Assembly: GCA_027475525.1 (NCBI GenBank)
Contig: JAMWFC010000120.1
Location: 62,001-126,000, forward strand
Length of the DNA stretch: 64,000 nucleotides
Source: Macrolepiota albuminosa
Taxonomy: Eukaryota > Basidiomycota > Agaricomycetes > Agaricales > Agaricaceae
Direction of reading: 5' to 3'
Shown: piece by piece, positions 9,347 to 41,965 of the stretch
Layout of the letters: every line of letters begins with the position of its first letter
How positions within the stretch are numbered: the first letter of the stretch is position 1
Translations under genes and position numbers: made by a program
The notes under the pieces: model-generated
Databases searched by the model: none
Seen by the model: only the letters and a program-made list of their open reading frames with translations
What the model was told of the DNA's origin: nothing

Positions 9347-9379
9347 CCGGGATAGGGGACTAGAGTCCGGGGGTTTTGG

Positions 9380-16128: not shown

Positions 16129-17075
16129 TGATGACGCCCAAAGTTTGGTCAGTAACAAATGTAACTGGAGTGTTACCGTACCAAGAGTGTGCGTTGGGCG
16201 CGCTATAAGTGATTTGAGGAGTCCCGGGCAGGTCCCAGAGAACGCGTCTGTGAAAAAGGGTAAAAGTCGGTAACGGGGTCGGCAAGTGTAAAGCGCTAAG
16301 GTAAAGCGCCTAGGAAAGAGCGGTAAGCGAACACGGCAAAGGTAAGCGGCAAGAGCACGGTAAGCTTAGCGAAGTCTAAGCGTCGATAATGCCTGCCGTA
16401 GTTGCAAGGCGCGAGTGTGTCGAGTGTTGGCGAGCGTCTGTAACTACCGATGAGTTTTGACGTTGCCGACCGTAGCGTAAATGAGCTCTTGAGCGTAAGG
16501 GAGACTGAGGAAAGGGGAGTAAACTGTGGTCTATTGTTCTGCTCTATGTACAAGTCGGTAAGTACTTTTATACTACAATGAGTTTGCCGTCGCCAGTGGC
16601 TAATGACGCCAGAGTGCGGTAAACTGGAAAATTTCAAAGGGGCTGCTCCAACGGTTTCCGATCCCTACCGTCCTTTGAGGACCCTTGGCGCCACCAGGCG
16701 GCAGATCGCGGTGCTAAACCATCAATCCATCACCCTTCTGTCTGTCAAAACACCTAAGCGACGTTGGGCGCCAAATCGAGACGGTAAGCGGTGTCAGACG
16801 CCAAGGTCAAACGCCAAGCTGTCCGTCAGTTTTTGATAGATCATCAGGCTTCTCGCTAAGCGCTGTCGTCAGTGACTGATGCCATCTGTCAGTTGTCATT
16901 CTGTCTGCCGATCGGCGCTATCACTGATTGGATCTGCTTCTTGCCGTGCGCGGCCGTCAGAAATGGCTTAAAATAGGTAGAACGCGTGCGCTAAGTTCGG
17001 AACGAGTGCGGCAAGGTTTCCGGGGCCGGTGCCGAGCCTGCCGTTGATGCGCCTAACCTGTATAGGGTCCTATCA
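16129..17075 (-). repeat. 3' LTR of element B
   Basis: Starts TGATGACGCC and ends CCTATCA on the plus strand, 947 bp. The minus strand carries TATAAAAG at 16572-16565, the likely core promoter. It is rich in GCTAAG/GGTAAG/GGCAAG words. Confidence 0.95.
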
Positions 17076-17084
17076 TCTCCCCCC
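17076..17084 (-). promoter_or_regulatory. Polypurine tract of element B
   Basis: GGGGGGAGA on the minus strand, directly upstream of the 3' LTR, as needed to prime plus-strand DNA synthesis. Confidence 0.8.
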
Positions 17085-17245
17085 AACTGAAAAATTGACT
17101 GTCCTCAGTCACCAAATAAGGCTACCGTTACCGCTTTTGTGACAAGTGGTCCGTGCGTTCTTGAGATTTAGTTTATAGTCCTGGCGCATGAGTTTGGACT
17201 TCGTTTCTTCTCCCCCTTTTTTACCTGGCGCTCAGAAATTAAAAT
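17085..17245 (+). promoter_or_regulatory. Putative promoter region of the B antisense gene
   Basis: About 160 bp between polypurine tract and ATG. It ends in a pyrimidine-rich stretch (TTTCTTCTCCCCCTTTTTT near 17204-17222), typical of fungal promoters near the start site. No clear TATA box on this strand. Confidence 0.4.
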
Positions 17246-19651
17246 ATGTCCTTCCGAATTCCAACTCCGCCCCCAGTACCGTCCCGCGAGGCTCAAGACG
17301 CTGCCTCCGCATACATTGACAAGGCGAACCGCTTTATCCGGCGGATCGAGGGTGTTGGCGCCGAAGCGCCTGCAAATCTGGTCGTTGGCGTAATGAGATT
17401 ATTGGAGCGGTGGTATGAGGTGCGAGTACTTGGCGTTGGGTGGGATCGGGAGATTGAGGTGCGAGAGTGGTGCCGGGCGCGGTACGTAGACAATCGTGGC
17501 GCTGAGTGGTTAGCGCCTTTCTCCCGTTTTGTGAGTGCTTTCAGTCCTTGCCGTGTCGCTAGCTGATCGAGTTGCCAGGCGCCCCCTCCCGTCCCGACAA
17601 TCGAGGACGAACTGGAGGATATTTTGTCTGGCGCCTTGCCGATGACGGTAAGCGCTCCCGCGCCTGAGTAAGTATCTCTGATTGTTATTTCTAACTTTAG
17701 CTGTGGTCTGATTTGTCTCCTAGCAGTAAGCAAGAGGTATTGGCGCCTCTCGCCAACCTTCAGGTTGATGCCGAGATGGCTGCCATTCGTGAGGAAGCGT
17801 TTGCCGAGGCGTCACGGGATGCCCAGGAAAGGCTCCAGGCGCAAGAAGGGCGCGAAGTCACTGGTGAGGAGGAGGTCGTCGGCAAGGGGAAGGCGCCTGC
17901 TACGAAAAGGCAGGAGTCCGCAGTCGCTGGGTCGAGTAAAGATTCCCGCGCCGGCAGTGCCCAGAACCCAGCACTGCCGGCAAGCAGCATGGGTTCCCCA
18001 GTTAAGCCGGGCAAGACTTTGAAAAAGAAGGTAAGTCTCCTCCTTTCTTACTGTTGGCGACCGCTGTTCATCCTATTTCAAGTCTCGTAAGGCTGCCGCC
18101 CCTCGCTACGCGGTAAGCTCGTCGCGCCAAGGTACTTCCCCTGCTAACCAGCTAGTTGACAGGTACCAACACAAACCTCCTTTAGCGACTCAGAGCTGAA
18201 GGGTCTGTTGGTGGCGCGACGAGATGAGGCGGTTTTAGATGAAGGATTGGAGGCGGGGGTGGTCTTGCCGGAGATGAAGGACAAGAAGACGGCAAGTCCG
18301 GCGGCAAGACGGGAGTTCAAGGACTCCCAAGGAGCGGTAAGGGTTGTAGCTCTTCTTACCGCGTTTGTTAACACTTCTGTAGTGCGACAAGTGCTGGGCC
18401 GACAACGACCCAGAGGGGTGTTGGTACCCCACCGGTGGCCAGCCCTGCTACCGGTGCGGGACGCTAAAACGAGCTTGCACTTTGGACGGCGCCAAGAGTC
18501 GTGAACGCGGTGGGGCTCCCGACGCGGTAGTGGAGCGCACTTTCAAGCGTGCCGTACTCGTAAGAAGGGCGCGGGAGTTCGTCGAGGGGGAGAGGAAGAA
18601 GCAGGCCGCTGGCGACGCGGCCTTAATCAGCAAGAGTTCCCTGGCGCTGCCGACGCGTCAAGGGGATGAAAACGAAACGGTCGGCAATCGTGGCGCCGGA
18701 GAGCGCCAAGGGACTGCGGTCCCCACAAAACGACAAGCCCCTTCCCCCAGCAAAGGGAAGGGCAAGGCAAAGCGACCTCGGGTGGTCTCTTCACCTCCCC
18801 CCTCGCCAGCCCCTCGCGACACCGAGATGGAAGACTTGCAGAGGGCATTAGCGGCGAGTCGCCTGCCCCCTCAAGATTCCGAGGCAGGCCCAAGTGGCCT
18901 CTTGTCGCCCATCCATTTGGCGGCGAGGTCCCTTGGCGGGGGGGAGGAGGTGGGAGAGCGGGCAGCGGTTGGCGACTCGGCGCCACCAGAGGAGCGGGAA
19001 GAGGTCCCTGCAGATGTGGAGATGGAGGATGAAGAGAAGGCCGAGAAGGCGGCAACGGGAGGGACTGAGGACGCCGAGGGTGAAGAAGAAACCTTGGCGA
19101 CTCAACGCGAAAACGACGAGGCGGGAACCGCGGCTAGGGAGCCAGTGGCAGAAGAGGTGGTAGAGGGCGAAGGGGCGATGGAAGAGACTTTGCGGGACTT
19201 CCCTGGCGAGTCCCAGGAGTTGCCGGCAGTGGAGCCTGCCGCCCCCTGGGTAAGTGAAGGTGACTTGGCGACGCAGCTTTGGACAAGCTCGAGTGGGCCT
19301 TCATCGTGGACCCCCCAGCCTCAGCCAAGAGTCACTGGCGACACTTACGAGTGGCTGGGGGAAGACCTCGTCTATCCGGTGGTGGCTTTGTACCCCCCTC
19401 AAGTGATAGAGCGGATGGCGACGCGTGCGGCAAGTATGCAAGCGGTACTGGGTCGCGAGCGCGAGCGGGTGCGGCAACAAATCATGGCCTCTCGCCTTCG
19501 ATACGCCAATTTGACTCGTAGCATGGACGCCCTTCAAGAGTACCAGGCGGACTGCAACGAGGCGCTAGAGTGGCAGGCCCTCAACCACGTGCAAGTTGGC
19601 GATCTCTTGCCGCTCGACGACTCGATGTCGCTTTCAGAGGATGATGACTGA
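17246..19651 (+). CDS. Spliced antisense Zn-cluster protein of element B, six exons, about 717 aa
   Basis: Proposed exons: 17246-17530, 17579-17667, 17724-18030, 18083-18112, 18163-18336 and 18383-19651. All five introns are 46-56 nt with GT-AG ends; CTAAC branch words are visible in two. The spliced frame is open throughout. The N-terminus is MSFRIPTPPPVPSREAQ, with helical EIEVREWCRARYVDN and acidic stretches. A cysteine cluster at about residues 296-327 reads CDKCWADNDPEGC, then CYRCGTLKRAC: CX2CX8CX8CX2CX6C, like fungal Zn(II)2Cys6 domains with a longer first loop. Acidic/low-complexity sequence follows, then a C-terminal helical region (YPPQVIERMATRAASMQAV to SLSEDDD). It ends 428 bp before pol, convergent. 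Spliced here by eye; function unknown, DNA binding inferred. The gene at 31015 in element A shares the plan. Confidence 0.75.
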
Positions 19652-20078
19652 CGGACCTTAGGGTAGATAGGCCGTCTTGTTTATATTTTCTCTTGCCGTT
19701 TCGATATATATTTGTTTTTGCCGCCTCCTTGCCGAGTGGACGGATGAGTCTAGTAATCTGAGTTAACGCAACGGCAGAGATCAAGAAATGTATGGCAACG
19801 AGAAAGCAAGCGGTAAGTGTTCTAAAGTAAGTTTTTAGCAAGAGGAGTAGTAGGTGTGGGACTTAGACAAATTTTTGAGAAAAGGGAAACGCTCAGTAAA
19901 TCATCATGGCGAAAAACCCTTGGCGAGAGTTGCGCAATGCGCTAAGCGTTGGCGACACGCTAGCGCTGCGACTTGACTACGTAAGGAATTGTCTGTTGAA
20001 TATAGTATGGTAAGTATCGGCAAGAAAGATAAGTAAAGTAAGTAATAGAAAGAAAGAGCTTATCAATAATATTCTTTT
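19652..20078. other. Spacer between B antisense gene and pol
   Basis: No gene seen. Holds the 3' ends of the two convergent transcripts; T-rich and TATATAT words near 19680-19715. Confidence 0.5.
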
Positions 20079-23000
20079 CTAATCGTTTTCTTCTTCTTCA
20101 ACTAAAGTCGGCAAGTCATCATCGTCCAATAGTTCGGTTTCTTCAAGTTCTCTCAGCTTGGCGGTGTCGATATCTAGCGCTTCAAGCGGCAAGTCAATGT
20201 GTTCTCTGGCGAGATATGGCAAGAGGCGAAAAGCGGCAACAGGTCGATGCAGTACTGAACCATCTAATTCACAGAGCACGTAAGCGCCTCCACGGTTACG
20301 AGCGATAACTACCAAAGGTCCTAGATAGCGCGGGCGCATTTTCTTGTTGTATGAGGTTTCAATTTTGGAGTTACGCATGAGTACTAGCGCGCCCCTCGGG
20401 AAGTTGTAATCCTTGATAGTGGCGCTATGCTCGGTTTCGAATCGTAATGCTGCTTGGCGACGTGCGCTAAAGACTGCCTCGTGGAGTCGCTCTAAATCTT
20501 CCTTCCTTCGTTGGAGATCAATGGCTCGTCTGGCGATAAGGTCGGTAGTCGCTAAGATACTGTTGGGTGCTGGTTGAAGATAGGTCGCTTCTATGATGTC
20601 GGCAGGGAGTAAAGGATGGGTGCCAGTAGCCGCGTAATAGGGAGAGCAACCCATGCGCTTACGAATAGTAACTCTTTCCGACCAGAACACTGAATAGGTC
20701 GCTTCGCTCCAACGAGACTCGTCGCCATCGACTGCCTTGAAGAGTGCTTGCCGAACGTCAAAGTGGGGTCTCTCTACCAGGCCATTGGCGCGTTTGTTGT
20801 AGCCAGACACTCGAATGTGGTGAATGTTGTATTTCTTGGTGAGGTAAGTTAGCGCTTTGATGATGGGCGCACCGTTATCCGTGACGATCTCTCTTAGCGC
20901 TCCCCAACGGCAAATGACGTCCTCAAATAGCCACTTGGCGACCGCCTCGGTATTTTCTCTTTGAAGCATTCGAAATTCAGGCCAGTGGATTAGCGAGCAA
21001 CGACCTTGAATGATGTACTTGTAGCGACCAGACTTGGGCATATGCATGGTGTCGACGTAAATTTTGCTAAAGAGTGGAGCTGGCGTTGCAACGGTTGGCG
21101 GAATGAGCACTTGGCGCGTTTGTTGGATTTGGCAGAGGTGGCAAGTGCTGATGTACCAGGCGATGTCGGCGCTAGCGTGTGGCCACCAAAATCGTTCTAG
21201 CAGAGAAGCTCGAGTAGCGTACAGACCTCTATGTCCTAGCTCGTCATGCATAGCGCGCAAGACTCGTAAGCGACCTTCTGGCTTGATGATCAGCTTGTGA
21301 GCGCCATCTCGATTTCGTCGCCAAAGTCGGTTGTCGGTAAAGAAGAAGTGGGTAGCATAGCGGATAAAGGTAGCGTATTGTTTGTCGGTAAGGTCTGGGG
21401 GTCGCTTAAGGTCTTGTATCCATTGCTCGACTACCAATAGGCGACTATCTTCCGCCTTTGCCTTGGCGGATCGGGGAACGGCATCGTAGGTCAGGTTTTT
21501 GCTGTCTTCTCTTAGCGACTGAGGTTCCTGTACGACTTTTACTGGAGGCAAGTTTTGACTGTGGATGCTTGCCGTGTAGAACGTGAGGGGTGCGCTAAAG
21601 GTCTCGGGGCGGTAAGGGACTATGGGATGTAACAGGATGCTGGTAGGCTGTTGCCGTCGTAGTAAGGGAATTGGCTGTTGAATGAGGTGCACGAAACCAT
21701 GTAGTCGGTCGATCCAGTCCTCGAAATCGCTATCAGCCTGTGGGTCCACTGCCGGGTCGCCAGGCTGCCGTGGTCGCCTAGAGAGTCCATCTGGGCCGTG
21801 GAAAGAGCTCTTGACGTGTACCAGCTCAAAGTGAAACATGAGGATAGCGACTACCCACCGATTCATGCTAGCGGATGGCTGGATATCGGGATTCTGCAGC
21901 ATGCCTTTGATGTACCTAGCGTCGACCTCAACGATAAGGTTGCGCACGCCAATCAAATACATCTTTAGCGACCGGAAGGCTTTGAAGAGCCCATAGAGTT
22001 CTAGCTTAGGCTGGCTGTAGCGAGACTCTCTGTCGTTTAGCGTGATAGACCCAAAGCGGTTGTAGCGTCGCTGTTTTCTAGCTTAGGCTGGCTGTAGCGA
22101 GACTCTCTGTCGTTTAGCGTGATAGACCCAAAGCGGTTGTAGCGTCGCTGTTTCCAATTGTCGCTAAGGCACTGGCACAAGAAGTAGCCAACAGCAATGT
22201 ACGAGGTATCCACCGCCAAGATAACAGGGTCGGCAGAGGTATAATCGATGGGGACTAGGGGCTTGGCGTCCTGCAGAGCTTTTACTAAGTCGCGTTGTGC
22301 GGTAACCTGGTCTGGCCCAAATTCGAAGGGCTCGTTGGCGCGGGTGAGTCGGTTAAGAGCATGTGCGCGATGGGCAAAGTTTTTGACGAATATCCTGAGA
22401 ACGCCAACGGTGCCAAGAAAGGCGCGAACTTCAGATAAGTCGCGGCAAGGACCCCATCGCTCTAGGAGTGCTAAGCGAGACTCGTCGGGAACGCGACCGT
22501 CGGGAGTGCAGATGTGACCAAGTATTTTGAACTTAGGCGCGCAAAGGAGGAGTTTGTGACCGCTAAAGGTACCACCGCTATACTTCATACGTTGGAGAAC
22601 TCGGTTGAGCAACTGGAAAAAGTCCCATAACGCTAAGCGAATATTGGGGTTCTCGGGATGGGTCGCCGGTAAGCCGTTAACGAGTCGCCAGTCTTTGGGG
22701 CCTTTGACGCCAACGTCATCGATGAAGCTAAGGACTTTATGCGGTATCTCGGGTTGGAGGATGAAAGTGATGTCGTCATGGAATATGGGGACTGAGTTTG
22801 TCCAGCCCATCGGCAAGGTAACTAGGCGCAAGGCGCCAAACGGAGTTTGAAAGGTAGTGAGATCGGGACTGAGTTTGTCCAGCCCATCGGCAAGGTAACT
22901 AGGCGCAAGGCGCCAAACGGAGTTTGAAAGGTAGTGAGATCCGGGAAGAGGGGTGTATCAGGTGTTCGTCGTAGCCAACGTAGAGATCAAGGGTGGCGCC

Positions 23001-23981
23001 ACAGATACGCCCGGCAAAGGACTCGGCAAAGTGGTCAGGGAAAGGCGGTACGCCAGAGTGTCGTATGGTTACTCTATTCAGCGGCTCAAGACTGTGAACT
23101 ATGCGTAGATTGCCGTTCTTTTTGAGGACACAGAACCAACGGGAGCGGTAAGAACTGTTTGAGGGCTCGTAGATGCCAGCCTGTATCTTAGTCCTAATAA
23201 TCTGACAGACCTCGGCTTCGATCCCAGGCGGTAACGGTCGGTTGTGCTCAGTCCACGGCACGTGAGGAATAGTCGGGATTACAACAGGCGGGAAGAAATC
23301 TGTACGTAGGCTGCCGCGTTCGGAGTCCTCCCAAGCGAAGGCTTTGTCTTGCTTAGCGACAAGATCGGTAAGGACGTTTAACTCATCTTTGGTCAAAAAT
23401 CCTGTGTCGTGCTCCTTGGCGAACTGCTGTTGGCGTTCCTCGGTAAAACGTCCTGTGGGCTGAAAGGGTGGCGGATTCGGTGATAAGGCCGGCATGTCGG
23501 CAAGAGGGTCGCCAATGATCTGGCGCTCGATTCTGAAAGTCTCGGGAGAGTGCGTAGCGATGGGTTTTGTTTTAAGCGCAACTGGCTTATATTTCTTTTT
23601 AACTTGAACCCCTTTCCTTTTGGGAGCGTTAGCTTGGTTATACACAGATGTGGAAAGGGGAACTGTAGCCTGAGGAGCGGCAAGTCCAAGAACGGCAGGA
23701 GGCGAGGCTCCGGGGAGAGTGGTGAGATAAGTATCGGTAGACGCTATATTTTGAAACGATTCAGAGGCGGTAAGATATAAGTACGCTAGAGCTGAGTCGG
23801 TAATATCTGGGTTTTTCTGAGAAAGCTCAGCGTCGGTAACGGTCGAGGAAAGTAAAACTTCTTTGTCAAGATATGCGGTAGACAAAATATTTACAAGACC
23901 AGTTGAATGGTCATATTCCAGCGTTAGCGCCACATCTCCGTGATCGTCGCCAATCACCTCCTCGATGGTCTGTGAAAACAC
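20079..23981 (-). CDS. Ty3/gypsy pol of element B (RT, RNase H, integrase)
   Basis: Minus-strand frame in the -1 register to gag-protease, overlapping its end. An N-terminal linker leads to an RT with WFCVLKKNG and the catalytic FIDDVGVKG (Phe in place of the usual Tyr). RNase H has AVDTSYIAVG and SLKMYLIGV, then VKSSFHGPDGLSRRPRQ. The integrase has a zinc finger (HDELGH, CHLC) and a DDE core: Asp in VDTMHM (21051-21053), Asp in TDNGAP (20877-20879) and Glu in LVERPH (20772-20774), 34 residues between the last two. The C-terminal part has RPRYLGPLVVIAR; no chromodomain is seen. It is interrupted only by two 77-bp duplications (21999, 22788), which split it into three frames and are probably artefacts. 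Otherwise it looks intact. Confidence 0.9.
21999..22152. repeat. 77-bp tandem duplication in RNase H of B, likely artefact
   Basis: TTCTAGCTTAGGCTGGC occurs at 21999 and 22076. One copy has to be removed for the RNase H frame to run on. Confidence 0.9.
22788..22941. repeat. 77-bp tandem duplication in RT of B, likely artefact
   Basis: GGGACTGAGTTTGTCC occurs at 22788 and 22865. It splits the RT between its N-terminal third and the catalytic part. Confidence 0.9.
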
Positions 23982-26266
23982 CGGTGTGGAGGCTCGTTGG
24001 CGTGTTGGTCGGTAAACTCCGGGGGCTTAGCGCGGGCGCCTTTTCGTTGTCCCCTAGGGAACGTTGGCACCGTTCGTCGGATTCCGGAGTTGGGGTCGCT
24101 AATTGTGAGGGTCGTTTCCTCGTCGGTAACTGTCTTGACGACTGATCGCGCCAAGACGTCGAAGGGTCTGCCCAGTAGTAGGTCGTAAGCTGGTGAACGT
24201 AAGATGTGGATCTGAAGATAAAACGTGATGTCGCCAAGGGTGCACGGCACATTCTTGGCGAGGCCTAGGGATCTGTCTACCGTACCGTTAGCGCTCTGCA
24301 TATTTAGTATCACCGTAGGGTCGTAAATGAGGCCTAGATCGTTAGCGACTTCTGCTGCCATAGAAATAATCTGAGACCCGCTATCCACGATTGCCTCTAC
24401 TTCGTGCTTGTTGTCTACGGTTAGCGCTACTGAGCGGATAGCGTGTGATTCTTGAGCGACGGTAAGGATGGCGGGGTCCTCTCCATGGTCCACAGATCTA
24501 AGGTAGGTCTCCACTGGGTCCACCGAGGTGGCGTTAGCGATGGGGTCGGCAAGAGGTTCATTGGTGTCGGGAGCGTCGATGGTAACAGAGAAACCAGGAA
24601 GCGCATCGTCTAGTTCATCAACCTCGGCAACGGCTGTCGCCAAGGGTCGTCGAGGAGTGACTGCCGTTTTGACCTGGTTGCGGACGTCGGGAGCAATACT
24701 ACAAAGTTCTTCTACTGACAAGGTGACGGCGGTTTTCATAATACGGTTGAAGACGTGGTTGGATTTTTCTATGTCGAAAATTGGCGCGGTAGGTCGGTAG
24801 CCACCCTCAGGGCGTTTCTCGGGAGCGGCAAAGTTTCGTTGTGCTGGAGCATGGTAACGGTCGGGAATCCCTGAATAGGGATGGAGAGGCGGCAAAGGCG
24901 GTTCGGGAGCGGTAGCGGACGACGAGGGTTCTGGTGCAGGTGCAGGGGCAGTAGCGGGCGGTGCGGCAGGAGCGGGAGTCGGTAACTTGCTAGCGGGGGG
25001 CATCGGCTTATATCCTTTAAGAGGTTGTTTGGGCTGCTTAACTTCAACCCCATCAAAAACCTGATTCTTCAGCGAATCCAATTCCTGCTGTAGCTTGGCG
25101 ATCCGCTCTTCACGCGAGAAGGTAGAATGGTCGCCAACGCTGTCGAAGTGTAAAACCTCGTGAATCATCTGCTGTTGAGTTGCCTGGTCTGGGTCGGGGT
25201 TGGCGTTGCCAGATAGCGTGCCGGTAACGATTTGTCCTGGATTGCGCCTATGCCATTCATCAACTCTCTCCTGGAAGGACTTCTTGTCGGGGTAGTTGGG
25301 AATAGTGGCGCCAGAGGTAAGAACTATCTTGCCGTCGATAGCCCTACGGATTCTTCCTTGCCGAATATAGTTTTCGAGGGTAGCGCAGCGTCCTCTAGTC
25401 ATAGTATGGCCAATTTCCCCACAGAAGTGGCAAGGGCCAGGTGCGGGTACGTTAGCGGGTCGGTTAGCCGTGAGGTTGGTGGTAATCATAGTTTCGATAC
25501 GTGTCATCGCGGAGGCGACAGCGGCGGTAATAGCAGCATTGAGCTCTTCTTTCTTAACGAAGTCGGCAACAGGAGGCGGGATGGGAATGATACCGTTAGT
25601 TCGCTCAGGGGGTGGGCTCGTCCTAGCGCGCTGCAGTCCAACGCCAGTGTCCGTTCCCTTGAGAACCCATTTACCGGCTTCAAAGACGTCGGCAACGTTA
25701 TAGGGCTCGTCTGGGTGATGAGCCTGATGAACTATCTCTAGGCGACGAGCAATACGCGTCCACAGTGAAGTCGGGATGCCCTGCTGAAATAGGCGACGCT
25801 CCTCGTTAATATAGAGCTTGCCGTTCTGCAGAAGCCACCTAGCGACTTTCTGGAATTCGCGGTAATATGTAGAGAATGCGCCAAGCGACGATGTGCCACT
25901 GTCGAAAGATTCCTGTACTAGTTTCTGTAACTCGTTTACCGTGTATCGGGTAGCCTCCTCGGCGCCAGGGTACAGCTGGATAACTGCCGTCTTCCAGTCC
26001 TCATACGAAGCGCCTTGAGCTGGAGCTGGCGGTGCGGCAGGGACAAAGGCGGCAAACTCGGTCAAACCTGTCCACGTCTCTGCCGTGTCATACGACACGT
26101 ATCTTGCCGCATACTCCTTCATCTGCGTGTGGTCGGTAATGTTACAATCTCTGAATAGATACTCCAATGCTTTAAAATACTGGGAGAGCTCCCGTGGCTT
26201 GGTCTCGTCCCATTTCGGTGCCGAGAAGTGGTTGCGTGGCGGCATGCGCTGGACTTGTTGTTCCAT
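23954..26266 (-). CDS. Ty3 gag-protease of element B, 770 aa
   Basis: The ATG at 26266 (MEQQVQRMPPRNHFSAPKWD) opens a capsid region with KPRELSQYFKALEYLFRD and TYYREFQKVARWLLQNGKLY. A zinc knuckle follows (CHFCGEIGHTMTRGRC, with six rather than four residues before the last Cys) and a basic YIRQGRIRRAIDGK. After a proline-rich linker, a retropepsin-like domain is marked by AIVDSGSQIISM and, downstream, YDLLLGRPFDVLA. The stop at 23954 lies inside the pol frame, so pol expression needs a -1 frame change or separate initiation. The same frame stays open about 340 nt upstream of this ATG to a stop at the primer site, so the true start could lie upstream at a non-ATG codon. Confidence 0.92.
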   Translation of the reverse strand: MEQQVQRMPPRNHFSAPKWDETKPRELSQYFKALEYLFRDCNITDHTQMKEYAARYVSYDTAETWTGLTEFAAFVPAAPPAPAQGASYEDWKTAVIQLYPGAEEATRYTVNELQKLVQESFDSGTSSLGAFSTYYREFQKVARWLLQNGKLYINEERRLFQQGIPTSLWTRIARRLEIVHQAHHPDEPYNVADVFEAGKWVLKGTDTGVGLQRARTSPPPERTNGIIPIPPPVADFVKKEELNAAITAAVASAMTRIETMITTNLTANRPANVPAPGPCHFCGEIGHTMTRGRCATLENYIRQGRIRRAIDGKIVLTSGATIPNYPDKKSFQERVDEWHRRNPGQIVTGTLSGNANPDPDQATQQQMIHEVLHFDSVGDHSTFSREERIAKLQQELDSLKNQVFDGVEVKQPKQPLKGYKPMPPASKLPTPAPAAPPATAPAPAPEPSSSATAPEPPLPPLHPYSGIPDRYHAPAQRNFAAPEKRPEGGYRPTAPIFDIEKSNHVFNRIMKTAVTLSVEELCSIAPDVRNQVKTAVTPRRPLATAVAEVDELDDALPGFSVTIDAPDTNEPLADPIANATSVDPVETYLRSVDHGEDPAILTVAQESHAIRSVALTVDNKHEVEAIVDSGSQIISMAAEVANDLGLIYDPTVILNMQSANGTVDRSLGLAKNVPCTLGDITFYLQIHILRSPAYDLLLGRPFDVLARSVVKTVTDEETTLTISDPNSGIRRTVPTFPRGQRKGARAKPPEFTDQHANEPPHRCFHRPSRR

Positions 26267-26628
26267 AGCGACTGGGTTGGCGAGTTCGGTTAGCGGTGGT
26301 GGGGAAGGGGTTCTAGGTATTGGCGACGGGGTAAGAGAAATGGCGAATTGTGAAAGCGGTGTTAACGGAGTGATAGGGGTAACTGATTGCGGTAAGGTAA
26401 AGGGCGACGCTAAGGGGTCGTCGGTACTATAATCGAGGGAATGCGGGAAGAGATCAGGAAAAGCGTCTGCAGTGGCGTTCTGTAGTTCCTGGGCTAGAGA
26501 GAGACCCGGTAAGGCACCAGGTGGTTGTGGAGTTGATGGGTGGGAAGGAGCTATGCCTTCTGCCGACTGATCTAGCAGGCGGCGCCTACGCTGGAGACGG
26601 GTTTCTGGCGGAATTCTGCCCTAGAGAT

Positions 26629-26646
26629 CCCTCGCGGTGGGCTCCA
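26629..26646 (-). promoter_or_regulatory. tRNA-type primer binding site of element B
   Basis: TGGAGCCCACCGCGAGGG on the minus strand, three bases after the 5' LTR. The complementary tRNA end would be ...GGTGGGCTCCA. The tRNA is not assigned here; yeast lysine tRNA also ends GGGCTCCA. Confidence 0.75.
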
Positions 26647-26649
26647 ATT

Positions 26650-30900: not shown

Positions 30901-31014
30901 CAGCGCCGAGACCCTCCGAGGCGCGCGTAGCCGGTGGTTCGGACCGGGGGTCAACCGTGGGATCCGGCGCCTGACCTGCCACGTATCGAAAAAAATTTCC
31001 CATCAAACTCAACC

Positions 31015-32841: not shown

Positions 32842-33105
32842 CAGTCTTTTTGCCGGACTTTCTTGACAGTCTCGTTATGTATCCTATAGTGTAGCGGTAA
32901 ACCAAAATGTATATACTTGTTCTGCCGAGGTAAGTAAGTAAAGAGAGAGAGGAAAGACAGAAACATCGCAAGTAATTTGGCGAGAGAGAGAAATTCGGGT
33001 GCTACGATGGGAGAGGGTAATCAAGAGGAGCGAGAAAGAAGGAAAAACAGAAAGTATACATGGGAGTTGAATCCCTACCGAAGCCAGAGGCGGGGGTTAC
33101 GCCCA
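32842..33105. other. Spacer between A antisense gene and pol
   Basis: No gene seen. Contains ATGTATATACTTG, shared with A' at 1250, and purine-rich runs near 32938-32990. Confidence 0.5.
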
Positions 33106-36100
33106 CTACTGCCGTCTGTGAGTCCTGCGCCCGGGGAGGCCGTTCCCCGGGTGCCGTTGTTGAAAGTTCCGGAGTTTGTCGAGGGCGCCTTCGAGGTTTC
33201 GGCGCGGTTCCCAAGTGTCGTCTTCCGGGCCGTACCCCTTCCACCGTACGAGGAAGTGGGGTCGTCCACGAATGTTCCGGGAGTCGAGGATGTCTTCGAC
33301 TTCGTAGTGGTACTCGTCCTCGACCTCGACCGGGGGAGGGGGCTCGGGGCGTCGTCCAGGGAAGGGATCCGGGGGGTGTCGTTCCAGGAGGCGGACGTGG
33401 AATACCGGGTGCAGACCTTTTAGTCCCGGGGGGAGCTCGATCTTGTAGGCGTGGGATGAGACCTTCTTCAATATTTTGAACGGGCCGAGACGCTTTGTCC
33501 CGGGGGCCCAGTCGGGGGTGTCTTCCCGCTTCCGGTCGGCGTGTTTCACGTAGGCCCGGTTCGCGGTGTCGATCTCCTCCCGGAGAAACTCGTGAAGGGA
33601 TTGGAGATCCCGGGCGACCTCGTGGGCGGCGTGCGACGGGATGTCCCGGAGCGAGAGCGTCAGTCGTGGGTGGTATCCCTTGTTGGCAAAGAAGGGTGAT
33701 ACCCCGGTGGCAGAGTGCGGCGTGTTGTTGTAGGTGAACTCGGCCAGGGGGAGCTCGGCGCGCCAGTCGTCCTGTAAGTAGTTGACGTACAGTCGAAGGT
33801 ACTGCTCGAGAGACTGGTTGACCCTTTCGGTTTGGCCGTCGGTTTCGGGGTGGTAGGCGGTAGAGAGGTTAGTCTTTACTTCAAGTGCCTTACACAGGGA
33901 AGTCCAGAACTTGGACACGAAGAGAGGGCCACGGTCGGAGACGATGTCGTCCGGGAGTCCATGTTTGGCGAAGACGTGCTCGAGGAACAGCCGGGCGAAG
34001 TCCGGGGCGGTATCCGTGGTGTGGCAGGGTAGGAAGATGCCCTGTTTGGTCAGCCTGCACACAACGACGAGAATAGCATCGAACCCTTCAGATTCCGGGA
34101 GCTCGACGATGTGGTCCAGAGATATTGAGGACCAGGGGCGTCGTCCGACCGGCAGGGGTTTCAGGAGTCCGTACGGTCGGTGTCGGGGGACCTTGGCCCG
34201 GAGGCAGGGCTCGCATGATCGAATGTAACGGGTCACATCCTTCTTCAACCCTGGCCAAAAGTAAGTCCGGGAGATGAGCTGGAGGGTCTTACGTATTCCA
34301 GGATGTCCCCGGAGCTTGTGGTCGTGGTGTTGACGGAGGACGTCGTAGCGAAGTCGGGCGTGATCCGGGACGTAGATGCGGCCGTCCCGGAGGAGGAGTT
34401 TCTCGTCGGGGGACAAGGAGAAGGCGGGGTCCCGGTCGGTTCCGTCGGAAGGGTTTCGGGGGTCGTGATCGGTGAAGTACTTGTCCCGGGGAGCGCGGCG
34501 GATCTGGTTCAGGGTTCCTTCGTCGTTTAAGATCAGTACGGCATTCAGGTGTTCGGGAGGGATCACCACGCGATGATTGAACGCATTGCGCTCCGCCTCG
34601 AATGACTTCTTGGGGTAGACGTCCGGTCGACGGGTGAGGGCATCGGGCTTGGCGCCAAGGCGTCCCGGGCGGTACTGGATCGTGAAGTCGTATTCCGAGA
34701 GGATCTCGGACCATCGGGCCTGTCGTCGACTAAGCTGTTTGGTCGTGGTGAAGTACTGCAGGTTGTTGTGATCCGAGTAGACCTGAATCCGGTGTCGGGC
34801 TCCCTCGAGGTAGGCTCGCCACTGCTTGAAGGCTTCGACGATGGCGAGGAGCTCCTTGTCGTAGATGTCGTAGTTGAGCTCGGCGTCGATCATGGACCGG
34901 GTGTAGAAAGCGACTGGCCGGGGCTCCCCACCGTCAGGCTCCATCTGTGAGAGGATCCCGGCGATGGCGTAGTCGGACGCGTCACATTCCAGGATGATCG
35001 GGAGGGCCGGATCGTAGTGCCGGAGTACCGGGGCGACTGTGAAAGCCTCCTTGAGCAAGTTAAAGACGCTTTGGCACTTACTGTCCCAGTTCCAGGCGAT
35101 GTCCTTGCGCGTGAGCCGGTTGAGGGGTTTCGTAATCCCGGAGTAGTTGTCTATAAACCTCCGGTAGAAGTTAGCGAAACCCAGGAAGGACTGTACTTCC
35201 TTGACGTTCCGGGGCTGCGGCCAGTTGACGATGGCCTCGACCTTGTGGGGGTCCATGCGAACGCCGTTCGGGGATACTATGACGCCAAGATACTCAACCT
35301 CTTCCGTATGGAAGGAGCACTTCTCGGGCTTGGCGTGGAGGTTGTGCTCCCGGAGGCGTTCGAGGACCTGCCGGACATGCTTCTGGTGATCCTCCGGTGA
35401 GTCGGAATAAATGAGGATGTCGTCCAGGTAGACGATCACGAAGACGTCGCTCATGTCGTGGAAGATGTCGTTCATGAAGTATTGGAACGTGGCGGGGGAG
35501 TTAGTCATTCCGAAAGGCATCACAAGATACTCAAACAGACCATACCGCGTGCGGAACGCGGTTTTCCACTCGTGTCCCGGGGCGATGCGGACGTTGTTGT
35601 AACCGGAGCGGAGGTCAATTTTCGTGTAGACCTTGGCACTGCGAAGTCGATCGACCAGATCGCCGATGAGCGGGAGCGGGTAGCGGTTCTTCTTGGTGAT
35701 CTTGTTGAGTCCCCGGTAGTCGACGCAGAGTCGGAGCGAGCCGTCCTTCTTCTTGGCGAATAGAACCGGGGCTCCGGCGGAGGAGGCGGAGGGTCGGATG
35801 AATCCCTTACCGAGCATTTCGTCGAGGTAGTCCTTGAGGGCCCGAAGCTCGACTTCCGACATGTTGTACACCTTGCCGAAAGGGGGGGCGACTCCTTCCT
35901 CGAGATCGATCGTGTGGTCGTAGGGTCGATGAGGGGGAATCTCCTTGGCGTCTCCTTCGGAGAATACGTCAGCGAACTCATGGTACTCCGGGGGAACTAC
36001 TTCTCGGAGGATCTGCTCCTCGGTTTTCTTCTCCGGGGGAACAGCGTCTCCTCGTAGGTGCTCTTCCGGGAGAGATGGCGAGGTGTGTAGCTGGAACGTG

Positions 36101-37458
36101 GGAGTTCCATCCTTCATGAGGCGGGCGAAGGGGGCGGCTCCAATGATCCTGATGTCGAGTGTGTCCGGGTCGATCGGGGTCGCGGGAGTGTCGGCTGGAG
36201 CGGGTTTGACCCGTGTCTGGGATCGGCCCGGGTAGTTCGGCCCTTTGTACTTGTTCCGAGGAATGTTTGGGGGCCGATCTGGGACATTTCGGGCTCGGCC
36301 GGGAGTGGGCGAGGACGTGGGTGGTGTAGATGGAGAGGGCGCGGCGGTCGTCCCGGGGGTGTCGGGTATCGGGTCGCTTCCGAGGGCCCGGAGGTGCACG
36401 GCGGTCGTGGGGTGGTCTTCGGGTCCCGGGAAGGTCATGGTGAGCGTCCTCCAATCGATGTCGGGGTTTGTGTCGCGCAGCCAGGGTAGTCCCAGCACCA
36501 TCGGGGTCGATTCGTGAAGTCGCGTGACCAGGAAGTCGGAGGTGAACTCGTAGCCGTTGTCCAGGGTCACGCGTCCTGAATGAGACCTCTTGATGGGGCC
36601 GGAGGCGGAGGGAGTGCCGTCGAGGCGCTGCAGGCGAAGGGGCTGGTCGAGGGGGTCGTGAGGGAGGTCGAGGGTGTCGCTGATGAAAACCCCGGTGGCT
36701 CCGCTGTCGATGAGGGCCGATATCGGCCCGGGGGTGCCGTCCAGCCTGGCATTGATGACGAAGGACCGGGACGAGCGAGACTGGAGTCCCGGGGGTGGTG
36801 GGGGTTCGTCCGGGCAGTCCTTCGGGGTTGGTCTTGGGGGGTGGGGGATGTCGAAGGGAAGTTGTTGGTCGTCGGGCGTCGGGTCCCGGGTCAGGCGAAG
36901 GGTGAGGTGTCGCCAATCGATGCGGGGGTTGGTGTCCCGGAGCCATGGGAGCCCTAAGACGAGGGGTGTGGAGGGGTGAAGTTTGGTCATCAACATCCGC
37001 AGGGTGTGAGTCTGTCCGTTGGCGAAAGTAACGGGCATACGCACGAAATGGGTGATGTCCCCCGCCGTGGAGGCGTCTCCGTCAAAGAGGCAGAGTCGTA
37101 CCGGGACCGGGAGTCGTTGAGCGGGTTCCGGGGCCAAGGCAGACAATGCTTCGTCGATGAAGTTGTCGGTGGCGCCACTGTCGACGAGGGTGTTGAGGGG
37201 GGTTCCGGAGGGGGTGAGGCGGGTGTTGAGGAGGAGGGAGTGCGAGGAGTGGGAGGGTAGGTAAGCCGTGAGGGTGTCCTGTACGAGTGTCGTGGAGCGA
37301 AGGTGGGAAACCGGGGCGGAGAAGACGTCGGGGTCGATTCCGCGATTTAGGGCGTCTTCCGGGTCTAAATCGCCGGGTCGTTTTCCGAGTACTCGTAGGT
37401 GGCGTCCTCTCCTTCGAAGGTCCAGGTGGCACGTCCCATGACCTGTCGTTTGGGGCAC
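33106..37458 (-). CDS. Ty3/gypsy chromovirus pol of element A, about 1450 aa
   Basis: One open minus-strand frame in the -1 register to gag, overlapping its end by roughly 120 nt; the annotated first codon is GTG, inside the overlap. Domains: retropepsin-like 1 (Asp93 in [10 protein letters not shown], later [11 protein letters not shown]), retropepsin-like 2 (Asp251 in [10 protein letters not shown], again [11 protein letters not shown]), RT (YLDD at 677-680), RNase H ([16 protein letters not shown]), integrase finger (CEPC) and DDE core (Asp1115, Asp1175, Glu1211; 35 residues between the last two). A GPF-type motif ([11 protein letters not shown]) and a chromodomain ([17 protein letters not shown]) end the protein. 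Compared with A', 20 residues just before the GPF motif are missing in frame. Pol copies and inserts the element; the chromodomain would steer insertion to marked chromatin. Confidence 0.93.
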
Positions 37459-38546
37459 TCGGAGATGAAATGATCTTTCTCACCACAGAGTATGCAGACG
37501 CCCTCCCTTCTCCGTCGTTCCTGCACATCCGTCGGGACCTCGATCCAGGGTCGTCCCTTCTTTTGAAGCCGGTTGGCTCGGAGGGCCTCCTCGTCCCGTT
37601 CGTCGTCGAAGTCGAAGTCTTCGGGGTCTCCCGGGGGTTCCTCGGGGCTTGGCGCGTCGCCCGGGTCTTGGGTGGCCACGGCGGCGTTGAGCTGGGCCTG
37701 GGGGCGGGTGCCGCTGCCGGGGTTAGCATTGGGCGGGCCGCGACTCACCGGGGGTCGGCCGCCAGGGAACGCGGGTGGGGGCGGGTGCCGCTGCCGGGGT
37801 TAGCATTGGGCGGGCCGCGACTCACCGGGGGTCGGCCGCCAGGGAACGCGGGGGGCCTTCGGGGTTGGTCTTGGGGGGTGGGGGATGTCGAAGGGAAGTT
37901 GTTGGTCGTCGGGCGTCGGGTCCCGGGTCAGGCGAAGGGTGAGGTGTCGCCAATCGATGCGGGGGTTGGTGTCCCGGAGCCATGGGAGCCCTAAGACGAG
38001 GGGTGTGGAGGGGTGAAGTTTGGTCATCAACATCCGCAGGGTGTGAGTCTGTCCGTTGGCGAAAGTAACGGGCATACGCACGAAATGGGTGATGTCCCCC
38101 GCCGTGGAGGCGTCTCCGTCAAAGAGGCAGAGTCGTACCGGGACCGGGAGTCGTTGAGCGGGTTCCGGGGCCAAGGCAGACAATGCTTCGTCGATGAAGT
38201 TGTCGGTGGCGCCACTGTCGACGAGGGTGTTGAGGGGGGTTCCGGAGGGGGTGAGGCGGGTGTTGAGGAGGAGGGAGTGCGAGGAGTGGGAGGGTAGGTA
38301 AGCCGTGAGGGTGTCCTGTACGAGTGTCGTGGAGCGAAGGTGGGAAACCGGGGCGGAGAAGACGTCGGGGTCGATTCCGCGATTTAGGGCGTCTTCCGGG
38401 TCTAAATCGCCGGGTCGTTTTCCGAGTACTCGTAGGTGGCGTCCTCTCCTTCGAAGGTCCAGGTGGCACGTCCCATGACCTGTCGTTTGGGGCACTCGGA
38501 GATGAAATGGTCTTTCTCACCACAGAGTATGCAGACACCCTTCCTT
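36819..38546. repeat. Block of about 690 bp repeated at 37856, probable misassembly
   Basis: 36819-37509 and 37856-38546 are nearly identical (offset 1037), starting CCTTCGGGGTTGGTC. 38625-38885 likewise repeats about 37512-37775. The join points lie next to 77-bp duplications. Element A' has a single copy of this region. Confidence 0.8.
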
Positions 38547-41205
38547 CTCCCATGACCTGTCGTTTGGGGCACTCGGAGATGAAATGGTCTTTCTCACCAC
38601 AGAGTATGCAGACACCCTTCCTTCTCCGTCGTTCCTGCACATCCGTCGGGACCTCGATCCAGGGTCGTCCCTTCTTTTGAAGCCGGTTGGCTCGGAGGGC
38701 CTCCTCGTCCCGTTCGTCGTCGAAGTCGAAGTCTTCGGGGTCTCCCGGGGGTTCCTCGGGGCTTGGCGCGTCGCCCGGGTCTTGGGTGGCCACGGCGGCG
38801 TTGAGCTGGGCCTGGGGGCGGGTGCCGCTGCCGGGGTTAGCATTGGGCGGGCCGCGACTCACCGGGGGTCGGCCGCCAGGGAACGCGGGGGGACCGGGGT
38901 TTCGACCTTGGGGGTTGGGAGCTTCGCCGGAGGGCCAAGGGGGTCCTCCTCTAGGGTTCCAGGGGGGTCGGGAGTTCGAATACTCGCTGCGGTCTTCCCA
39001 GTAGCGCTGGTCGATCTGCATGACGAGGGCCTTGTATCCGTCGTAGGAGGGTTGTTTCGGGGCGAGTCGGAGGACGTCCTTGATACGTTGTGGGAGGGCG
39101 CGGCGGAGGGCGTACCGGAGGGCGCTGTAATTCCAACCTGTCTCGTAAGCTTCCTTTTCAAAACGTACGATGAAGGTAGTGAAACGTTCTTCAGAGCGCA
39201 TCCGGAGGTTGAAGAGGTTGTCCTCGGCCTCGGCCACGGTGTCGTATATCCCGAATTTCCCGGAGAACTCGTCGACGAAGGCTTGCCAGCGAGCGAGTGC
39301 CGGGTTGTTGGGGTCGAACTGGATGAGGGCCGTGTAGTGATCGAAGGCGATCCCCTGGAGGTACGACGCGGCAAAGGCCACCCGGGAGCTGTCAACCTGA
39401 AACGTGAGCGGCTTTGCCTGAAACGTATTAAGACACTGAGTGAGGAAGGTACGCCATTTCCGGGGGTCCCGGCCCGTGAACGCATCAGGTTTCTGAATGT
39501 CTAGGCGTCCTTCGCGGGCGAGGGCGTCGCGAGCGTCGTCCGGTCCGGCAGCGTTACGGGGAGGGGGGCCAGCGTTGTAATAGTAGTAGTAATGATTACC
39601 CCCCCCTCCTTGAGGAGGAAAAGCACCAAGGGCGGGGCCCCACCCGCCGGGAGGTCCTCCTCCGGGCGGCTCACCTGGGGGACCACGCCCGGGAGGCCCG
39701 TTGTCCCAAGGGGGTTCGTTCCTGCCAGGAGGGGGGCCGGGTCTCCACGCCGGGAGTGGCGGAGGTGGAGGGCCTGGGGGCCGTCCTCGAGGTTCAGCTG
39801 GGGGTGGCGGAGGCGGTCGGGGAGGGTTCGGCGGTGTCGGGTCGGGCGGAGGGGGGTTAGGTGCTGGGTCGGGTGCCGGGTTGCGCGGGGGACGTTCATT
39901 CCGGGAGGGTCGGGCTTGCATCGGGGGTCGCGGGGGGTTCCGTAGGTCGAAGTGGGGTGGCGGATCGCGGCGGAAGTTGCGTTCCGGAGGGGCCGGGGCG
40001 GACGTGGCGGGCGGTGCTGGTGCCAGGGCGGGCGCGGGCGCGGGACGTTGTTCGTTGTTATCGCGCGTGAGCTCGTCAATGTAGCATAACGTGTCGTCCG
40101 TACTAGGGGTGTCCACCCGGGCTGTACCGGGGTTCGTCGGGGCCGGGGGTCGGGCGTTGTCTGTTCGCGGGAGGGGTTCCAGGGGTCTTTGAGGCTGTCC
40201 CCAGGTCTCGAAGGTACTAGGAACGGAGTTAGCCCTGCGGCGAGTTGACAAGCCTACCGTGCGAGCAGCGGGTTGATCGAAGAGGCCTCCCGTCGGGTTG
40301 AGGGACCGTAGTATGGCTGAGGCGTTCTGCCGTTCTTCCCGTTGCCGTTGCTCCGGAGTGGGGACCGTGGGGGCTGCCGGGACTGCTGGGGCCGGTTCCG
40401 GGGGTTCCCGTCGAATGTGAATCGAGCGACCTGGGTCCGCGGGGTCGTTGAGGGGCCGAGGGGAGGGGGACGCGTGGACTTCGTCGAGCAGCTGCTGTAA
40501 TTCCTCCCGGAGGATCGTATTGCGCCTATACCTTACCATGGTTTGCTCCGGGAGGTCTCCTCGCGTGAGGCGATCCCCGAATTCGACCAGGCAGTGAGCC
40601 CATTCCTCCGGAGTGCCTTCGAAGTCGTCGTGCCCGAACTCCACAAGCAGCGTCCTTGTCCGTTGCGCGAAGTCCTCCGGTGAGATCCTGAGAGAGCGGA
40701 GTATCTCGTCCCGTTGCCGTTCATACTCCTCGAGGCGTCGTCGTCCCGTTGGCGAGGGAGGGGTCCGAGCGGGTGGAGCGGCGGCCGGGTAATGACGAGG
40801 GGGGTAGTCGGGGTAGGGGGGTCCTCGGGCTTCTCGGGGTTGGGGGACGGGGCGCTGGTAACCGTAGTAGGGGGTGGGTGCAAAGGGGCCCTCGCTGGGG
40901 GGAATCGGGCGAGGCCCACTGGGTGCAGGAGGGGTCTCCGGCAGGCCCCCGGGAATGCTCCGGTACGAGGGGACCTCCACGGGTCGTGCCATGGCTAGGT
41001 TGGGCGGAGGGGCCCAACTGGCTGAGGGCCCCAGATCATAGAAGGATGGGTCGGGGGCCCAGTGGCGGTGGAGGTACTGAGGTTCGTATGGGAGGGGTGG
41101 GTAGACAGGGCGGGGGGTCTGCGCGGAGTAGTGGTCGGGTACCGGGCGTCCGTAAGGGTCGGTCTGGTACCCCGTGGGGTAGTAGGTGTGAGTATACGTA
41201 GCCAT
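37365..41205 (-). CDS. Ty3 gag of element A, interrupted by assembly duplications
   Basis: Starts at the ATG at 41205 ([19 protein letters not shown]), 21 nt after the primer site. An N-terminal Tyr/Pro-rich part is followed by [21 protein letters not shown] long proline-rich linker leads to a Ty3-type capsid with [19 protein letters not shown] and [16 protein letters not shown] sequence. An acidic segment precedes the zinc knuckle [14 protein letters not shown] (CX2CX4HX4C). It stops at 37365 after [10 protein letters not shown]. The frame is continuous from 41205 to about 38550; the remainder is confused by the 77-bp duplications at 38471 and 37699 and the 690-bp block. The protein, some 900 residues if these are removed, is long for a Ty3 gag because of the proline-rich part. 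Confidence 0.85.
37699..37852. repeat. 77-bp tandem duplication in gag, likely artefact
   Basis: TGGGGGCGGGTGCCGCTGCC occurs at 37699 and 37776. Confidence 0.88.
38471..38624. repeat. 77-bp tandem duplication at zinc knuckle of gag, likely artefact
   Basis: TCCCATGACCTGTCG occurs at 38471 and 38548. It duplicates the CCHC coding stretch. Confidence 0.88.
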
Positions 41206-41225
41206 CAAGAACGGTGTAAGGAAAG

Positions 41226-41238
41226 AGTCTTGATATTA
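41226..41238 (-). promoter_or_regulatory. Self-primer binding site of element A
   Basis: TAATATCAAGACT on the minus strand, touching the 5' LTR. It is a perfect 13-nt complement of AGTCTTGATATTA within the LTR (plus-strand 41590-41602). This would let the RNA 5' end fold back as primer, as shown for Tf1. Confidence 0.8.
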
Positions 41239-41965
41239 TGTCAGGTTCCGCTGAATCGGGGGCTTTCCGGGAAAGCGACGCCCTTACGATGCGGACTTGA
41301 TCTACGGATACTCGGGGGTCTGGAACTCCGGGGCTAGGACTCCGGGGTTCAAGACGAGGACAGGGTAATCCCGGGAAAGGGGACTAGAGTCCGGGGGTTT
41401 TGGATGAAAGTGGCTGGGAGTTAGAGGGGGTCGAGTCGTGAACCGGAGGTTCTAAGACGAGACCAAGTTAGTAACTTAAGAGTCGCGAAGTGCGTACCAA
41501 ACTTATAGCACGCGAATACCAAGGCGTGCCAGTCGAAGCGTACCAAACGAGGCGTACCAGTCAAACAAGAGGGCACGCAATAACCAATGTAATATCAAGA
41601 CTACCGAATACAACAAGGGACTACGCTATAAGTACTACGGGATCGGGTCTCGGGGTTCCGGGATGTCTGGGATGGGTTCCGGGGGTTATTGAGTAGCGGC
41701 AGGGGCTGTATACCGGGATCGCGCGTGTGGGGCGCGCGATCAATTGGCGCGGATGGAGCCGTGATGCGTGATGCGTGATGGCCGGCACGAGTCGCGTGAT
41801 CTGATCGTTGATCGGGGCTGGTGATGGCTGATGGCGGTCCTTGATGCGCGTGATGGCGGTGTCGGCGGTCGTGATGGCGGGGCGTGTCCTGGGGGTCGGA
41901 GGGAGGGTCCCGGAGGGTGTTCCGGGGGTGTCCCGGGGTGGGCCCGGAGGGGAGGGGTCGTGACA
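41239..41965 (-). repeat. 5' LTR of element A
   Basis: 727 bp, in all stretches compared the same as 30162-30888. Confidence 0.96.
41590..41632 (-). promoter_or_regulatory. Core promoter and predicted RNA 5' end of element A
   Basis: CTTATAG (41632-41626 on the minus strand) lies about 28 nt before AGTCTTGATATTA (41602-41590). If self-priming is right the transcript starts at 41602, giving a TATA box at the usual distance. The same pair is in the other A LTRs at 30555/30525 and near 9680. Confidence 0.65.

Follow-up and report, generated by a model that had tools for sequence, protein, structure and literature searches.

Genes on the antisense strand of Ty3 retrotransposons have been known since the 1990s, and their function is described as unknown (references in PMC7264820, according to its accessible text). 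In plants, antisense additional open reading frames (ORFs) are reported for Grande, RIRE2, Retand and PvRetro13 in the accessible parts of three accounts (PMC7264820, PMC8365987, PMC11963269). The same accessible parts report a nuclear location for GENE23 and predict DNA binding for TRP28 (PMC7264820, PMC11963269). An earlier note on the DNA studied here had mentioned such genes from some plant Ty3 elements. This stands, and a fungal case can be added, brtn of Boty (cited in the accessible text of PMC7264820 and PMC8365987). The layout of an antisense gene is already known in plants and in the fungal Boty. Here we describe a stretch of 64,000 nucleotides (nt) from the agaricomycete Macrolepiota albuminosa (assembly GCA_027475525.1, contig JAMWFC010000120.1, positions 62,001–126,000), which is called the window. 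It contains two complete insertions on the reverse strand, E1 (16129–27596; a probable Ty3 element) and E2 (30162–41965; a Ty3 element), each with an antisense gene between pol and the 3′ long terminal repeat (LTR). Comparison of genomic copies supports the view that, within each family, the antisense gene is a hypervariable, exchangeable cassette. Our joint reading has a probability of about 0.6. In this reading the frames are true spliced genes, their diverged versions are swapped as cassettes, the product would be a nuclear regulator, and selection would favour rare or changing versions.

The earlier note had described a shared antisense layout in two elements, A and B. The layout is found as described, with the order corrected: B is the left element E1, and A is the right element E2 (Table 1). 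The gene starts had been placed inside the 3′ LTR, which does not hold. The ATG at 17246 (E1) is located 171 bp, and the ATG at 31015 (E2) 127 bp, past the inner edge of the LTR, in the internal region. As the note had it, the genes end before pol, by 427 bp in E1 (19651 versus 20079) and by 264 bp in E2 (32841 versus 33106). In the open copies of E1 and E2, the antisense introns are GT-AG introns of 44–59 nt. The E2 intron 31559–31603 is 45 nt long and is in-frame by chance in the window copy. A 449-residue E2 frame running through it had been proposed and was rejected; relatives at 80–84% identity carry 44 nt at this place and are open only if it is spliced. Thus, 31559–31603 is an intron, because the 44-nt relatives keep the frame only with its removal. 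Intron 2 of E1 has two overlapping in-frame choices, 17648–17700 and 17668–17726. Across 24 copies (the window copy among them, L023 excluded), the two alternative peptides are conserved and most changes in them are synonymous; VSAPAP has a replacement in three copies and LWSDLSP in one. Both forms of intron 2 are also seen by eye among Termitomyces gene models.

The copies examined are the best matches to the window antisense genes, with 40 scored of 1021 candidates for E1 and 40 of 735 for E2. For E1, 30 of the 40 were fetched; one is the window locus and five are identical to others, leaving 24 distinct other copies. For E2, 15 of the 40 were chosen and one is identical to another, leaving 14. 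Because the copies were picked as best matches, the samples lean towards intact genes, and the following counts come from a selected part of the several hundred LTR/polypurine junctions in the genome. The E1 gene is open with all five introns GT-AG in 22 of the 24 copies, and L023 and L035 are broken. The E2 gene is open with all three introns GT-AG in eight of the 14, and six carry stops. The diverged E2 antisense copies L048–L053 mostly contain stops, and by eye apparently many C-to-T and G-to-A changes. Such an excess seems to be what methylation decay would leave.

For copies chosen as open representatives, the ratio of nonsynonymous to synonymous divergence (dN/dS) against the window copy is 0.11–0.23 in ten E1 copies and 0.16–0.41 in five E2 copies. 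For the two remaining forward frames the ratios are 0.94–2.05. A reverse frame in which the third positions coincide with those of the gene gives 0.23–0.53, above the true frame in every pair. For the E2 linker (residues 240–460), dN/dS rises to 1.03 and 1.52 in two closely similar copies, where changes are few. Insertions and deletions across the antisense copies keep the frame. According to the low dN/dS in the coding frame, the frame-keeping indels and the kept splice sites, the sequences identify the antisense frames of E1 and E2 as true spliced protein genes.

Twelve chosen E1 copies were compared with the window copy in bins of 150 bp. The LTR and pol are mostly 0–12% divergent, and nine of the twelve copies peak at 38–57% within the antisense block, with a rise at about 17180 and a fall at about 19850. 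Two copies, L013 and L015, show the reverse, with a near-identical antisense block and divergence of up to about 12% in the outer LTR and pol. In L016 and L017 the antisense gene itself is a mosaic. The values in the final pol bins of L013 (14%), L015 (26%), L016 (55–83%) and L030 (23%) reflect piece ends or rearrangements. Synonymous divergence (dS) gives the same picture. In eight E1 copies, dS is 0.54–0.88 for the antisense gene versus 0.20–0.32 for pol. The antisense and pol values are 0.43 and 0.23 for L017, and 0.13 and 0.26 for L016. In L013, L014 and L015 the antisense dS is 0.00, with a pol dS of 0.15, 0.08 and 0.26.

The E2 family behaves in the same way. Nine copies picked for close pol (dS 0.06–0.15) have an antisense dS of 0.82–1.17, as in L057/L059 with 0.06 for pol and 0.86 for the antisense gene. 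Copies picked for a close antisense gene (L041, L042, L043 and L044; dS 0.05–0.07) have a pol dS of 0.13–0.18. Intermediate antisense/pol values are found in L045–L047 (0.34–0.35/0.11–0.12) and L048 (0.44/0.19), and L040 is a near-identical element (0.00/0.01). The leader of the E2 antisense gene remains 85–99% identical. Of 40 scored E2 pol places (97–98% identity to the window wherever a value is given), 33 are without a match in the set of 40 antisense candidates scored. Twelve of these 33 were fetched, and all twelve encode an antisense homologue with 54–61% protein identity over the main stretches; of the nine aligned, four are open and eight have all three GT-AG introns. As they were chosen for absence from the antisense matches, they show that such versions exist, not how frequent they are. 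A second E2-family copy lies at the edge of the window itself. Its four main pol pieces are 89–94% identical at the protein level. For its antisense protein, identity is 45% in the central part, 89% over the cysteine cluster and 75% towards the end.

The trees of the two genes conflict. In approximately unbiased (AU) tests with IQ-TREE, the clade in which the antisense gene places the window copy is rejected on the pol data (p = 1e-4), as is the pol grouping on the antisense data (p = 3e-133). The earlier note had left open whether the layout was gained twice or exchanged. Exchange is borne out within each family by the dS values, the divergence profile and the trees, and it is not borne out between E1 and E2: among 30 E1 antisense loci with flanks, the E1 LTR is present in 30 and the E1 pol in 29, and no exchange between the two families was seen.

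Three other explanations of these patterns were weighed. The probability that the antisense frames are chance open frames is negligible, even though the region is GC-rich, many other frames of at least 150 amino acids occur in the window, and one reverse frame has a lowered dN/dS as well. In every pair the annotated frame has the lowest ratio, and the kept splice sites, the frame-keeping indels and the homologues in another genus (Termitomyces) argue against chance. Random frames without conservation in other copies had been named by the earlier note as the finding that would overturn the idea; the other copies instead contain conserved frames with purifying dN/dS and kept splice sites. A higher mutation rate of the region, caused for instance by antisense transcription, could account in the absence of exchange for a high dS confined to the antisense block in most pairs. 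A rate effect by itself would place the antisense dS above the pol dS in all pairs. This explanation is very unlikely, as seven copies from both families combine an antisense dS of 0–0.07 with a pol dS of 0.08–0.26, and the pol and antisense trees conflict. The assembler may also have joined parts of different copies. The window contains 13 tandem arrays (score at least 140; from 36–188 to 38471–38627), each with a 77-bp period and roughly two copies, which look like k-mer artefacts at assembly joins (k-mer length 77), and gaps of exactly 100 N are present at 9174–9273 and 28921–29020. Since some of the arrays interrupt the pol frame, broken frames in the assembly should not be read as decay. 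The 77-bp duplication is present in L014, L015, L016, L018, L022, L030, L055, L057, L064 and L076; L014 and L015 have one in pol, and in L055, L057 and L064 one or two lie within the antisense region or close to it. However, 29 of the 39 loci and pol pieces taken as key contain neither the duplication nor N. The conflict occurs with neither of them in the stretches examined of L013, L041/L078, L042/L075, L044/L077, L054/L066, L056/L068, L059/L074, L061/L070, L063/L071 and L065/L073. The arrays in the window copies of E1 and E2 sit in pol and gag, not between the pol end and the antisense gene. In addition, the changes coincide with gene edges in many copies, and deep divergence of gene versus pol needs no joins. 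Chimeras are thus an unlikely cause of the pattern.

The antisense proteins of both families contain a cluster of six cysteines. In E1, the phase-0 intron 18337–18382 directly precedes the cluster, in which five of the six cysteines are invariant and the remaining one is nearly so (12 aligned proteins). In E2, the intron 31559–31603 directly precedes the cluster. A KRPR patch follows the cluster in both proteins. Conservation is relatively high in the cluster, and variation is greatest in the linker and the C-terminal region. The model of P0004, an E1-type homologue, contains a long C-terminal helix with a predicted local distance difference test score (pLDDT) above 90 at residues ∼321–370, and the mean pLDDT of the model is 50.7. 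In Pfam, the E1 type shows only a weak DUF3716 match (two of 12 proteins, best E 0.12), and exon 3 of E2 shows a coiled-coil match (ATG16) below the cut-off. No TRP28 match (PF04195) and no bZIP were listed by Pfam for the E1- or E2-type proteins. The homologue searches scored those candidates that had the most words in common (7997 and 7993). Among these, 11 homologues were found for E1 and one for E2, all of them hypothetical proteins of Termitomyces. A region search for further E2 homologues gave none among 22 candidates.

Both families are abundant. The E1 3′ LTR/polypurine edge has 668 matches genome-wide (41-base pattern, up to two mismatches) and the E2 edge 392 (up to two mismatches), with none for the reversed controls; the counts are slightly inflated because some places are exactly 77 bp apart. 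Cysteine-cluster genes are also numerous, with 75 of 2180 candidates scored in the E1-type search and 89 of 1466 in the E2-type search. The 3′ LTR/polypurine block lies upstream on the same strand in nine of 12 E1-type and 15 of 53 E2-type genes checked, and it was found on the opposite strand within 2.5 kb of none of these genes. Both fractions are lower bounds, since the list of junctions was confined to exact ones and to part of the contigs; the known E2 copy C6:473203 is among the genes missed in this way. A group related to E1, with a 420-residue antisense frame, keeps the same LTR/polypurine block (one locus, L084/L086, on C108 at 84500–85100 and 87300–88500). The 1.2 kb beginning near the end of its gene yielded no pol of E1 or E2. 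Another gene on the same strand seems to begin there, and this stretch is shared by 40 scored places of 409 candidates. The group may represent an element that has no pol but retains the antisense gene. For an E2-type group with 597-residue frames, no E1 or E2 pol was present in the 1.2 kb examined.

Whether the E1 and E2 antisense genes have one origin or two was considered together with the nature of the active product. A single ancestral gene, inherited or once exchanged and then diverged beyond recognition, has not quite an even chance. The genes occupy the same place and strand in both elements, and the KRPR patch follows the cluster in both. The main hint is the phase-0 intron exactly ahead of the first cysteine in both, a coincidence with a chance of roughly 0.002–0.01 (a rough estimate, with the anchor chosen afterwards). 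The profile comparison of the full proteins, however, is not significant (E = 0.24). The cysteine-region score of 14.5 falls inside the control of 100 shuffled-column comparisons (median 11.3, 95th percentile 15.9, maximum 19.2), and the alignment pairs the second cysteine pair of E1 with the first of E2. Independent origin of the layout in the two families is a serious possibility too, at somewhat below even odds. It agrees with the lack of detectable homology between the antisense proteins, with E1 and E2 pol being only ∼24–26% identical where aligned, and with the antisense genes known from several plant and fungal retroelement lineages (accessible text of PMC7264820), and it leaves the shared intron position and six-cysteine cluster to coincidence. 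The antisense RNA may act in place of the protein and regulate the sense RNA via double strands and small RNAs. The transcript would complement the 3′ part of the genomic RNA, and such a role is discussed for plant elements (accessible text of PMC7264820). This is improbable as a replacement for the protein, because coding selection is observed and an RNA function needs neither frames nor introns, and the RNA could act additionally.

In the joint reading given at the outset, diverged yet purified gene versions exist and, as the copies support, move between elements with far more similar LTRs and pol. The exchange would occur most simply by template switching during reverse transcription between co-packaged genomic RNAs. 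An integrated copy would express the gene by antisense transcription and splicing, independently of the genomic RNA. The earlier note had reasoned that an antisense gene can keep its introns, and we concur: splicing would remove the introns from the antisense transcript alone, so that they can persist in the genomic RNA and through its reverse transcription. The protein, with a possible zinc-binding cysteine cluster, a basic KRPR patch and a coiled coil, would most likely be a nuclear regulator of the element's own chromatin or transcription that counters silencing by the host or controls copy number. Selection favouring rare or changing versions would most easily account for the large stock of deeply diverged versions. 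Such maintained diversity may reflect negative frequency-dependent or arms-race selection, driven by host silencing or by interference among copies of the same type.

Several points weigh against this reading. What it says of expression, zinc or DNA binding, function and the cause of the diversity we infer from sequence. The near-identical block of L013 and L015 reaches into the LTR and covers its inner half. Resolution of the pol tree is weak (four of 15 inner branches starred), and the AU-tested groups were named after the distances had been seen. The exact 77-bp duplications resemble joins. The cysteine cluster of P0004 is modelled at a pLDDT below 50. Zn_clus (PF00172, cut-off 21 bits) reaches 10.3 and 8.7 bits (E 0.8 and 2.5) in the E2-type proteins and is not listed by Pfam for the 12 E1-type proteins. 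The antisense proteins are therefore not filed as Zn2Cys6. A changing DNA specificity located in the cluster looks unlikely, because the cluster is conserved and the linker and C-terminus vary most. The dN/dS values are well below 1 and give no general sign of positive selection, except for the E2 linker in two close copies.

A further step would be that the antisense gene is a polymorphic specificity gene, that is, interchangeable antisense regulators under diversity-favouring selection, in parallel in two Ty3 families. We put this forward tentatively and regard it as rather doubtful. In two families of a single genome the gene occurs in old versions that are under purifying selection and are exchanged between otherwise similar elements, which suggests that the target the protein recognises or escapes varies. 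Either the versions would evade a host silencing factor, or the elements would interfere with copies of their own type. Function becomes testable by comparing versions rather than elements. The elements also offer an example of an LTR retrotransposon carrying a multi-intron gene through RNA cycles, and they show that families defined by pol and LTR identity can conceal deep diversity at the 3′ end.

The features are collected in Table 1. Both insertions look recent, because the LTR pairs are identical and short repeats (GCGT for E1 and CGTAG for E2) flank the elements. By eye, E1 seems to be inserted into an integrase sequence at 15863–16309 of the window, which we take to be copia-like. The 43 bp spanning the E1 LTR edge (17069–17111) are identical in the E1-related family (L086). 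E1 has the domain order protease, RNase H and integrase zinc domain; Pfam is blank at the expected reverse transcriptase (RT), and the pol frame is broken at 77-bp duplications (21999–22153 and 22788–22941). E2 fits the chromovirus (Ty3) order of RT, RNase H, integrase and chromodomain, with 146.2 bits for RT. The CCHC knuckles of its gag are below the Pfam cut-off, like the gag domain. The earlier note had given A a chromodomain, two proteases and self-priming, and all three are found in E2: Chromo scores 51.5 bits (cut-off 25.1), there are two protease stretches, and 13 nt are complementary to the LTR. B was said to lack them and to use a tRNA site. E1 indeed has no Chromo match, a single protease stretch and no self-complement to the LTR; at least 7 nt of complementarity to the start of its primer site is not found in the LTR, and TGG is located 3 nt after the LTR in this site. 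At ∼33494, in the C-terminal part of E2 pol, all 39 of the other copies scored (39 of 39) have their main match beginning or interrupted; the window copy differs from these by a short change in length.

Table 1. Positions of the E1 and E2 features in the window
Feature	Position	Strand	Remark
E1 3′ LTR	16129–17075	-	947 bp, identical to 5′ LTR
E1 polypurine tract and adjoining block	17076–17115	-	
E1 antisense gene, six exons	17246–19651	+	716 or 718 amino acids
E1 antisense exons	17246–17530, 17579–17647 (or to 17667), 17701 (or 17727)–18030, 18083–18112, 18163–18336, 18383–19651	+	
E1 cysteine cluster	18383–18478	+	CX2CX8CX8CX2CX6C; begins at first codon of last exon
E1 pol, C-terminal part	20079–22082	-	RNase H, integrase zinc domain (Pfam)
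E1 gag/protease ORF	23954–26266	-	DUF4100, one aspartyl protease stretch (Pfam)
E1 5′ LTR	26650–27596	-	947 bp, identical to 3′ LTR
E2 3′ LTR	30162–30888	-	727 bp, identical to 5′ LTR
E2 antisense gene, four exons	31015–32841	+	560 amino acids
E2 antisense exons	31015–31150, 31203–31558, 31604–32450, 32498–32841	+	
E2 cysteine cluster	31604–31714	+	CX2CX6CX15CX2CX6C; begins in first full codon of exon 3
E2 pol	33106–37479	-	two protease stretches, RT, RNase H, integrase, chromodomain (Pfam)
E2 gag ORF	38119–41208	-	Retrotrans_gag 23.2 bits, slightly below the 24.1 cut-off
E2 primer site, self-priming type	41226–41238	-	13 nt complementary to own LTR
E2 5′ LTR	41239–41965	-	727 bp, identical to 3′ LTR
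Antisense gene of second E2-family copy	1–1097	+	truncated at window edge; element ∼1–10046

Among the titles and abstract openings searched, with subscription journals largely outside, no account was found of spliced Ty3 antisense genes in agaricomycetes or of such swapping, and the word 'antisense' is absent from the text of PMC2864245. The closest systems are the plant aORF-3R genes (gene23 of Grande, RIRE2, and TRP28 of Retand), which are likewise antisense between pol and the 3′ LTR and are, in the plant elements, kept in most copies (accessible text of PMC7264820 and PMC11963269). In contrast, the E1 and E2 genes are multi-exon with conserved introns and their versions are swapped, neither of which is mentioned in the accessible plant accounts, and their proteins have no match to TRP28. 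The brtn gene of Boty-like elements (Botrytis, Sclerotinia) is likewise an extra antisense gene in a fungal Ty3-type element, with an ascomycete host; the likeness is by description, not by sequence, and the accessible accounts are silent on introns and swapping (PMC7264820, PMC8365987). The antisense gene HBZ of human T-cell leukemia virus type 1 is another retroelement gene of this kind with a nuclear protein (accessible text of PMC11963269). Unlike HBZ, the E1 and E2 proteins have no bZIP listed. HBZ is a bZIP protein, and its transcript is spliced and starts in the 3′ LTR. The fungal Zn(II)2Cys6 (Gal4-type) regulators likewise have a six-cysteine cluster and a coiled coil elsewhere in the protein. 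The usual Zn(II)2Cys6 spacing is CX2CX6CX5–12CX2CX6–8C, and the spacings of E1 and E2 both depart from it, in addition to the scores below the Pfam cut-off. In the immunity regions of lambdoid phages, a diverged and swapped cassette lies between conserved modules. The comparison is an analogy: the cassette likeness of E1 and E2 rests on sequence, and repression and immunity belong to the phage side. If the antisense gene were a polymorphic specificity gene, it would be the LTR-retrotransposon counterpart of these phage immunity cassettes.

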